This document shows positions 21,282-23,167 of a stretch of 64,000 bases of DNA, piece after piece. The stretch's first letter is position 1. Each line of letters opens with the position of its first letter. The notes under the pieces were generated by a model, which searched no databases, was not told the DNA's origin, and saw only the letters and a list, made by a program, of their open reading frames with translations. The translations under genes and the position numbers were made by a program. The DNA is from Gottfriedia acidiceleris (lineage in GTDB: Bacteria; Bacillota; Bacilli; Bacillales; Bacillaceae_G), in the NCBI RefSeq assembly GCF_002128425.1, contig NZ_NESS01000008.1, positions 1 to 64,000 of the forward strand, given 5' to 3'.

Positions 21282-21722
21282 TTGAAAGTATTATTACAGC
21301 GCACAAAAGAAGCAAAAGTCGTAGTAGACGGACAAGTAGTAGGTCAAATACCTAAAGGATTATTATTGCTAGTCGGAATTACGCATGAAGACACAATTGA
21401 AGATGTTAAATATTGTGCTGACAAAGCAGTTAACCTAAGAATTTTTGAAGATGAACTTGGAAAAATGAATTTATCATTAAATGATGTTGGAGGCCAGATT
21501 CTATCTGTTTCTCAATTCACTTTATATGGAGATACTAGAAAAGGTAGACGTCCAAGCTTCACAGATGCAGCCAAGCCAGAAATCGCAAATGAATTATACG
21601 AATATTTTAATTCATATTTACGCGAGCAAGGTTACGAAGTACAAACGGGTATTTTTGGTGCAGATATGGATGTAACATTTACAAACTGGGGACCAATTAC
21701 AATTATGATTGAAAGTAAATAA
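21282..21722 (+). CDS. dtd: D-aminoacyl-tRNA deacylase
   Basis: 146 residues, TTG start behind aggagg (21269-21274). Motifs of the DTD family: [47 protein letters not shown] (near 79-95) and the proline-bearing loop [12 protein letters not shown]; here the usual GP dipeptide is W-G-P-I. It hydrolyses D-amino acids mis-charged on tRNA. Co-transcribed with relA. Confidence 0.96.
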
Positions 21723-21857: not shown

Positions 21858-22037
21858 TTGGACATAATTACAATTGTGTTAATCCTTATCGCTGGTGTAA
21901 TTTTGTTTACAATCCTCAAAAGCTTCTTTAAAGCACTTTTATTTGTCATTTTAATCATTCTAGTTTATTACGGATTAATGTATTTCATTGACGGGTCAGT
22001 TGAAAGCATTCAATCTAATTTAAGAATATTTCATTAG
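21858..22037 (+). CDS. Small hydrophobic membrane protein (59 residues)
   Basis: TTG start at 21858 with a strong aggagg (21845-21850) eight bases upstream. Conceptual product begins MDIITIVLILIAGVILF and is nearly all hydrophobic in residues 3-45, enough for two membrane helices split by a KSFFK turn near residues 21-25; it ends DGSVESIQSNLRIFH. A dedicated terminator follows immediately at 22039. The ribosome site and terminator together argue it is expressed. I do not recognise a family. Confidence 0.7.
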   Translation: MDIITIVLILIAGVILFTILKSFFKALLFVILIILVYYGLMYFIDGSVESIQSNLRIFH

Positions 22038-22038
22038 G

Positions 22039-22063
22039 CCATGGTGTGTACCATGGTTTTTTT
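22039..22063 (+). terminator. Terminator of the small membrane protein gene
   Basis: ccatggt (22039-22045), loop gtgt, accatgg (22050-22056), then seven T's; begins directly after the stop codon. Confidence 0.9.
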
Positions 22064-22109
22064 AGTTGAGATGAAGATTTGTTGGATGTAGTACATAATA
22101 ACTGGGAAT

Positions 22110-22408
22110 GACAATTAAATACAAGGAATCGCAAATAAAAATCGAGAATCGCAAATAAAACCTTGTGATGGCAAATAAAAACTGGAAGTGGCAAATAAAT
22201 ATAGGGAAATGCAAATAAAAGCTGGTGATGGCAATTAAAAATAGGAATTGAAAAAAAGACCGAGAATCGCAAATAAAAACTGGAAGAGGCAAATAAATAT
22301 AGGGAAACGCAAATAAAAGCTGATGAAGGCAATTAAAAATAGGAATGGCAAATAAAAACCGAGAATCGCAATTAAAAATCAGAAATCGCAAAATAATAAC
22401 TGATATTC
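22110..22408. repeat. Array of fifteen ~20-bp direct repeats
   Basis: Units start with gcaaataaaa or gcaattaaaa followed by a 10-nt variable part (for example ctggaagtgg, tagggaaatg, cgagaatcgc). Boundaries fall at 22131, 22151, 22171, 22191, 22211, 22231, 22269, 22289, 22309, 22329, 22348, 22368 and 22388, so the period is exactly 20 bp in most of the array. Units 22171-22250 and 22269-22347 are the same four variants in the same order, showing a later block duplication of about 98 bp. Minus-strand open frames across it are products of the periodicity. The remaining gap to 22663 is AT-rich with no other feature seen. Confidence 0.93.
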
Positions 22409-22663
22409 ACAATTAAACTTAGTAGCTTTATGAAATTTGCAATAATATCATAAATTTTACTAATTAAAATCTCCTTTCAAGATTATCCATATTAAAAACT
22501 ACTCTAATCTAATCAAATTCCAACTTTCTAAATCCATGGAACTAGATAAGTGCTGAACAAACTCAAGTAAAAGATTCCTTAAGTTTTCAATAATATTTTA
22601 ATTGTTTAATCCATTAATATTTGGACATCCTATATAACAACATACTTGGAAGGAGACTGCAGC

Positions 22664-22837
22664 ATGAGAATAAATAATCGTAATAGTCTAGGATCAGGTA
22701 GAAAAGGTGTCTTGAATATGGATTTTCATGAGTTTCAAAATAGAGGACAAGAATCCAATTCATTAGAGATGGCGAGTGAGTTTGGCTTAACTTTAAGAGA
22801 AGTGCGTGATTTAAAAAGACAGTTGGAGCGTTCGTAA
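22664..22837 (+). CDS. Small predicted helix-turn-helix protein (57 residues)
   Basis: ATG 22664 has aaggag (22649-22654) upstream, favouring it over an in-frame codon at 22646. The C-terminal half, SLEMASEFGLTLREVRDLKRQLERS, resembles a single helix-turn-helix like sigma region 4 (helix MASEFG, turn, recognition helix REVRDLKRQL). The N-terminal half is polar (NNRNSLGSGRKG). It sits just before the hisS promoter, on the same strand. I cannot place it in a named family with confidence. Confidence 0.7.
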   Translation: MRINNRNSLGSGRKGVLNMDFHEFQNRGQESNSLEMASEFGLTLREVRDLKRQLERS

Positions 22838-22889: not shown

Positions 22890-23167
22890 TAACATATTGA
22901 TACATAGTAACATTCCATAGACGGAGAAAAGTAGGATAGGATCTCTTGGAGAGAGAGGAAGTGCCGTGGCTGAGAGCATTTCCACAAGTAGACTATTTGA
23001 AAGACACTCCCGAGGCTTTATTCTGAACGATTTCTAGTAAGAATAAACGTAATCGGCGTTAACGATGAAAGTGGGAGAACAGTTTATTGTTCTTCAATTA
23101 GGGTGGCACCACGGGCTTATAACTCTCGTCCCTACTGTTTTTATTTCAGTAGGCACGAGGGTTTTTT
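22890..23167 (+). promoter_or_regulatory. T-box leader of hisS-aspS with overlapping Asp/His specifier
   Basis: Contains the conserved T-box sequence agggtggcaccacggg (23100-23115) that pairs with the tRNA acceptor end, and a terminator stem (23125-23137 with 23147-23159, T run after 23161). In the Stem I specifier loop, after gaaa, the sequence reads GACAC (23003-23007): GAC for Asp and CAC for His overlap by one base. Uncharged tRNA binding stabilises the antiterminator and permits expression of both synthetase genes. Confidence 0.9.

Follow-up and report, generated by a model that had tools for sequence, protein, structure and literature searches.

The tandem array that lies downstream of the dtd gene in the window (the whole stretch of 64,000 nucleotides that was analysed) is a member of a scattered family of intergenic repeats, and not a lone product of slippage. 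As to its nature, we give about an even chance to the reading, made from sequence, that its roughly 16 units form a lattice of sites bound by a putative sequence-specific DNA-binding protein.

Architecture and surroundings of the array

The array (Table 1) was delimited both by eye and by script, and two of its 16 unit positions are degenerate; the fifteen-unit array of 20-bp repeats reported in the earlier note is thus real, with 16 positions by our count. Clear cores start at 22111, 22131, 22151, 22171, 22191, 22211 and 22231 in a first run, and at 22269, 22289, 22309, 22329, 22348, 22368 and then 22409 in a second; the degenerate positions are found near 22250 and at 22388. Steps between units are mainly of 20 bp, although steps of 19 and 21 bp also occur. 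Tandem Repeats Finder reports a period of 20 with 15.4 copies (22095-22401) and also a period of 98 with 2.1 copies (22171-22378, 91% matches). The higher-order duplication that had been described is therefore present, but its proposed extent of four units was too short: the block spans 98 bp and includes a fifth unit, of which copy 1 has a degenerate version. The chain score of the array, which favours the core and steps of 19-21 bp by construction, is 34, versus 10 for the highest of 500 dinucleotide-preserving shuffles; the runner-up in the window, where 20 called gaps of >150 bp were compared, scored 5.

The description of the unit as half conserved and half variable holds for the core, which is kept, but the second half is not freely variable and has a weak consensus, many 20-bp units ending in AATC and many 21-bp units in ACT. 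Similarly, the suggestion that all units occupy one face of the helix is only approximately correct. Steps of 21 bp keep phase, whereas 20 bp corresponds to 1.90 turns at 10.5 bp/turn; because about 34 degrees are lost per unit, a pure 20-bp array is a slow helix of sites and not a straight face.

The dtd gene served as a syntenic anchor in all 13 genomes of the genus. Neither of the two small ORFs that flank the array matched a Pfam family; the 59 amino acid ORF has an ATG start in several syntenic genomes, and the start of the 57 amino acid ORF is present at 10 of the 13 syntenic loci, the stretches read in G003, G008 and G011 being without it. The position of the latter presumably resembles that of Bacillus subtilis YrzK. 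The terminator said to lie 5' of the array is indeed there. Of the Rfam matches, only the T-box scored above its gathering score; this leader is strong and precedes the synthetase gene 3' of the array, which by inspection reads as hisS. Coding on the minus strand (ORFs of 105 and 109 amino acids) was considered and rejected, as the reading frame changes from species to species with the mixture of 19-, 20- and 21-bp steps; the 109 amino acid frame matched no Pfam family. At the start of the window, positions 1-295 hold a separate 42-bp tandem repeat of seven copies (92% matches).

Table 1. Features at and around the array, in window coordinates
Feature	Position	Strand	Evidence or remark
dtd, D-aminoacyl/D-Tyr-tRNA deacylase	21282..21722	+	Pfam PF02580, E 1.1e-58; upstream of array
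Small hydrophobic ORF, 59 aa, TTG start	21858..22037	+	Open frame; between dtd and array
Intrinsic terminator of upstream unit	22036..22062	+	10-pair stem 22036-22059 and T run
Array	22095..22428	+	16 positions, core GCAAWTAAA, steps 19-21 bp
98-bp higher-order block, copy 1	22171..22268	+	Tandem Repeats Finder period 98, 91%
98-bp higher-order block, copy 2	22269..22366	+	Tandem Repeats Finder period 98, 91%
Post-array sequence	22429..22645	+	Alignable by eye in several syntenic array-bearing species; G010 without it
Small ORF, 57 aa, downstream of array	22664..22837	+	Open frame
T-box leader of following gene	22909..23136	+	Rfam RF00230, 131.9 bits, E 1.9e-30

Distribution, history and placement

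The pattern GCAAWTAAA-N10-12-GCAAWTAAA has 58 matches in the 4.77-Mb genome from which the window is taken (G000), versus none for the reversed pattern. Scanning 27 stretches of this genome with a chain rule of at least three units gave at least 27 arrays in 24 intergenic gaps, three stretches having none by that rule. Within Gottfriedia, nine of 13 genomes carry 53 to 319 pattern matches and four have zero; six genomes examined from other genera of the family also have zero. A search of relatives for units at 20-bp spacing, as the earlier note had advised, thus uncovered an array family that is patchy across the order: of 397 genomes, 23 contain GCAAATAAA pairs and 12 have at least 10 matches, namely seven Gottfriedia together with G276, G279, G281, G353 and G357. 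Summed over the 397 genomes, there were 395 matches versus 8 for the reversed control pattern. Patchiness extends to single genera, as G357 has 29 matches while 12 of the 14 genomes listed for its genus have zero, and G281 has 37 while three of the four genomes of its genus have zero.

A stricter exact pattern, run over 84,980 named species, returned 88 stretches, and taxon details rest on 80 of these. Among the matches listed, four or more clear cores were found in Gottfriedia, several Bacillus sp. isolates, Gracilibacillus, Metasolibacillus, Cytobacillus, Metabacillus, Bacillus infantis and uncultured Bacillus; lone core pairs in unrelated phyla look like chance. Up to 30 clear cores occur at a single locus, L123. 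Runs of N break the arrays at L073 and L127, both from draft assemblies, and array lengths in short-read genomes are thus probably underestimated. At L118:1145-1344 (Gracilibacillus oryzae), units with a GCAAGAAAG core are followed without a break by GCAAATAAA units at much the same spacing, a hint of core variants outside the search patterns. The window array had no match in the plasmid collection. Among viral contigs, 13 and 36 contained a single pair each but no array of this family; eight chains of three or four cores passed a loose threshold, and of the seven inspected, five are located in ORFs and none extends into a long array.

The earlier note had taken the absence of a conserved position in sister strains as an argument for neutral slippage. 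On the contrary, an array or a remnant of one, with differing unit variants, occupies the dtd site in all nine array-bearing Gottfriedia species. Clear cores range there from 1 to more than 20, being down to one or two in G002 and G006, and the arrays of G008 and G011 run off contig ends. In this comparison, which left out G003, there was no array in G005, G007 or G010. At a second site, fetched via its neighbouring gene, an array is present in G000, G004, G006, G008 and G009 and absent from G001, G010 and G011; G012 gave only partial matches there and four genomes gave no match. In G005 (L205) and G007 (L204), the gap at the dtd site contains a dispersed, GC-rich repeat of some 120 bp, GAGACTCC...AGCGAGCATCCTGGAG, which also lies close to the second site (L293, L294, L297 and L298); similar sequences are present in many Bacillus genomes. 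Overall, both sides of 9 of the 24 G000 loci are syntenic to a fetched G001 array locus, and both sides of 3 of the 24 to one of 14 fetched G002 loci, these counts being lower bounds because the loci are limited to those with exact pattern matches.

In a tree of recJ and relA-dtd (4,467 columns), G010 is nested in an array-bearing clade: the split joining it with six carriers has a support of 96, and that adding G000 has 100, while the carriers G011 and G012 fall outside the clade. Neither the core pattern nor the tail described below has a single match in G010, and since it is nested among carriers, loss of the arrays in G010 would be the simpler reading. As G010 lives without any match, the arrays are dispensable. 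Its branch is the longest within the array-bearing clade, which suggested a loss of mismatch repair; this was rejected, as mutS is found in all 13 genomes and is intact in G010.

Many Gottfriedia arrays are part of a larger dispersed element. At several loci, semi-fixed units with steps such as 21, 21, 18, 20 and 21 are followed by a conserved tail starting ATTACCCATACCnGTTAnGGTATTATG. With a G000 tail as query, every one of the nine carriers gave 6-23 places, and the four non-carrier Gottfriedia genomes gave none. Conservation is limited to about the first 135 bases, and the tail ends are not sharp. The hairpin tail of other loci could not be recognised at the dtd-site array (22429-22645). 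An RNA structure in the tail was also considered, but its five hairpin pairs showed zero compensatory changes and it is thus unsupported.

Gottfriedia arrays favour convergent gaps and avoid divergent ones. The 56 arrays of G000, G001 and G002 occupy 22 convergent, 32 co-directional and 2 divergent gaps, whereas among control gaps (150 bp or longer, from the same stretches) the counts are 14, 86 and 37, respectively; the Fisher p-values of 9e-6 and 1e-4 are too small because syntenic Gottfriedia loci were counted separately. None of the 56 lies within a called gene. Outside Gottfriedia the convergent trend is weaker (6/23 versus 7/43 controls, and 7/30 versus 15/91), and 2 of 25 and 3 of 33 arrays (5/58) overlap called ORFs, all of which have negative coding scores. 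Where the flanking Gottfriedia genes are co-directional, 18 arrays run with them and 14 against them; over all sets, 43 arrays are oriented with the upstream gene and 24 against it (p 0.027), a weak bias for which an RNA-level role could account. The array strand is that of the local majority of genes in 20 of 34 stretches, local gene strand being the sole gauge of replication-strand polarity.

Constant core and step, drifting spacer, and their possible meaning

Among array-bearing genomes outside Gottfriedia, seven of which were read, all that is common is a GCAAATA(AA) core recurring every 20 or 21 bp; the spacers differ by genome. Counted by the chain rule, the step is always 21 in G276 (19/19) and G353 (16/16), always 20 in G281 (13/13), and mixed in G279 and G357. 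When units were chained by a rule favouring 19-21 bp, 749 of the 839 steps measured 20 or 21 bp, and the raw spacing of exact cores, with no chaining, has the same preference.

Units picked by their core will of course look core-conserved, and the rates of divergence were thus determined on units not selected in this way: starting at an exact seed pair, further units were added on the outside, each by its best identity across the full 20 bases, and unit 3 was compared with unit 4. With pairs identical at fewer than 10 of 20 bases over the whole unit dropped, and with chance identity lifted somewhat by the A-rich core, the core was identical at 312/342 positions (0.91) in other genera versus 201/418 (0.48) for the spacer (38 pairs, 9 dropped); the corresponding values were 617/783 (0.79) versus 464/957 (0.48) in G000, G001 and G002 (87 pairs, 35 dropped), 651/765 (0.85) versus 488/935 (0.52) at the named loci (85 pairs, 73 dropped), and 83/99 (0.84) versus 57/121 (0.47) at the dtd site (11 pairs, 1 dropped). 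A comparison of syntenic arrays gave 813/921 for the core, 826/1131 for the spacer and 3954/4516 for the upstream flank, but it is biased, as units were picked by core in one genome, and the upstream flank is kept as well as the core. At the second site, genomes outside those defining the grid had nearly equal values for core and spacer (e.g., 58/63 versus 54/68). We therefore relied mainly on the within-array comparison, and not on the syntenic one, for the contrast between core and spacer.

Several families have such arrays independently, the core is kept at a step of about two helical turns while the spacers drift, and the arrays, in either orientation, lie away from genes and promoters; taken together, this suggests that the units are bound by a protein acting along one side of the DNA helix. 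Each site of the putative lattice would be a GCAAWTAAA core, with the next site 20-21 bp away. Proteins at adjacent sites would share nearly the same face and may bind cooperatively, giving a stiff or wrapped nucleoprotein patch. Since the arrays lie downstream of genes, often convergent ones, and in either orientation, such a patch would most likely act as DNA, either as a boundary to supercoiling or to read-through transcription, or as a nucleoid anchor. Arrays would gain and lose length through duplication of single units or of blocks of several, with selection or the protein itself maintaining core and step against a drifting spacer; a dispersed element with a tail would, in Gottfriedia, also have incorporated such an array, made of semi-fixed units. 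The arrays, their step and placement, the keeping of core over spacer and the patchy distribution are observed; the protein, its cooperativity and the boundary or anchor role are what we infer from these properties. A protein-binding role had been thought possible in the earlier note, and is supported indirectly both by the recurrence of core and step in unrelated genera with different spacers and by the keeping of the core between neighbouring units; that no protein was found for GCAAWTAAA arrays counts against it. More speculatively, and we think this rather unlikely, a protein gained and lost horizontally among Bacillales may coat arrays of GCAAATA sites, about two helical turns apart, at gene 3' ends and drive or select their independent origin in each genome; where it was lost, arrays would vanish genome-wide, as perhaps in G010.

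A different explanation, possible although we doubt it, is that the arrays are selfish or neutral dispersed repeats that spread with a larger element and persist, with little harm, in gene-free and promoter-free gaps, the core being kept by a spreading enzyme or recombination step and not by any host function. Patchy spread with sister genomes at zero, a composite element whose tail has its 6-23 matches in each of the same nine genomes, presence in some and absence in others at the same site, avoidance of divergent gaps and the lack of any match in G010 are all in its favour, but a matching mobile gene was not found. The Y1 transposase (PF01797) does not track the arrays: it is absent from the array-rich G004 (the richest), G009, G012, G276 and G281, and present in the array-free G003 and G010, in the latter intact. 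Outside Gottfriedia no common flank was recognised by eye, core and step alone being shared, and the viral contigs and the plasmid collection, as described above, were negative. Nor was a target duplication or a terminal inverted repeat seen at the one site where filled and empty forms were compared by eye.

It is quite improbable, in our judgement, that the arrays act at the RNA level, terminator read-through yielding a long RNA that would be unstructured, present a bound motif at intervals of 20-21 nt, and act on 3' ends or titrate an RNA-binding protein. As RNA, the plus strand has unusually little structure (z 3.34, with a better fold in each of 100 shuffles; z 1.83 for the DNA fold), and there is thus no hairpin logic in the array; however, direct repeats in general lack structure when the unit cannot pair with itself, and the z-score is therefore weak evidence. 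The overall lean of orientation toward the upstream gene would also fit, but it is only 18 to 14 in Gottfriedia, many arrays are antisense to both neighbours, the terminator lies 5' of the window array, and a step close to the helical repeat would have no reason in RNA. We regard as least probable, and as already disfavoured, a plain satellite grown by slippage with no part under selection. Block duplications in the dtd-site array and wide changes of copy number there among sister species are in its favour, and growth by block duplication, part of what had been proposed earlier, is supported both by Tandem Repeats Finder and in G011. Slippage alone, however, leaves the kept core and drifting spacer unexplained: from one unit to its neighbour the spacer changes far more than the core, and genomes of other families have the identical core and step although their spacers differ.

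The putative lattice is of interest because distant genera share a core and step with unrelated spacers, and because one genus offers nine carriers and a nested non-carrier, which together form a natural experiment in gain and loss that may lead to the protein reading the arrays. It could thereby reveal a DNA-organising or boundary system of Gram-positive bacteria.

Comparison with known repeat systems

In the portions of the PMC open-access literature that were seen, with subscription journals and bioRxiv outside this scope, no account of a GCAAWTAAA repeat was recognised. We claim no membership for these arrays in any of the systems compared. CRISPR arrays have repeats of at least 23 bp and unique spacers of about 30 bp, whereas the core here is 9 bp and the spacers, of 11-12 bp, are related. 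The repeat unit of the pSK41 parC centromere is 20 bp, and the trait of ParR-type centromeres, a continuous block of ~20-bp tandem repeats, is present in the dtd-site array. Type II parC is likewise a run of continuous tandem repeats, coated there by the small DNA-binding protein ParR; plasmid parC is, however, one site beside its parM-parR operon (PMC5016525), whereas G000 has at least 24 chromosomal sites. No array that was read adjoins a par operon, the window site lying between dtd and the T-box gene.

REP and BIME elements often lie at gene 3' ends. Like the arrays, they are extragenic and are targets of insertion sequences, as was also seen here in G279 (PMC2817692, PMC1525189). REP is palindromic (PMC2817692, PMC1525189), whereas array units are non-palindromic, with no hairpin beyond shuffles, and the Y1 transposase of RAYT-associated REP does not track GCAAWTAAA arrays. 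In G279, identical IS256-type transposase genes of 391 amino acids (L274:6427-7996, L275:5033-6586 and L277:4837-6389; the L275 copy is PF00872) split array halves at three of the five array loci fetched, as if this insertion sequence preferred landing in arrays.

The TAACTGA repeats of marine Beggiatoaceae are also sets of intergenic direct repeats at many loci, patchy across distant lineages, and an RNA-level role has been proposed for them; they are heptamers of another sequence, without resemblance to our core (PMC4679880). The closest published kind found was the STAR elements (Staphylococcus aureus repeats), from which the arrays are set apart by core, composition and spacing. The STAR core is a GC-rich 14-mer, T(G/A/T)TGTTG(G/T)GGCCC(C/A), the copies lying at least 40 bp apart and numbering no more than seven at a locus (PMC3532100), whereas the arrays here have a 9-bp AT-rich core in several families, steps of 20-21 bp and up to 30 clear cores at L123. 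STAR elements have been assigned neither a function nor a mechanism of spreading (PMC3532100). Both are nevertheless interspersed intergenic direct repeats of related orders, at several loci per genome, with a short constant motif between more variable stretches, a copy number that varies by locus, and an uneven spread among species (PMC3532100).
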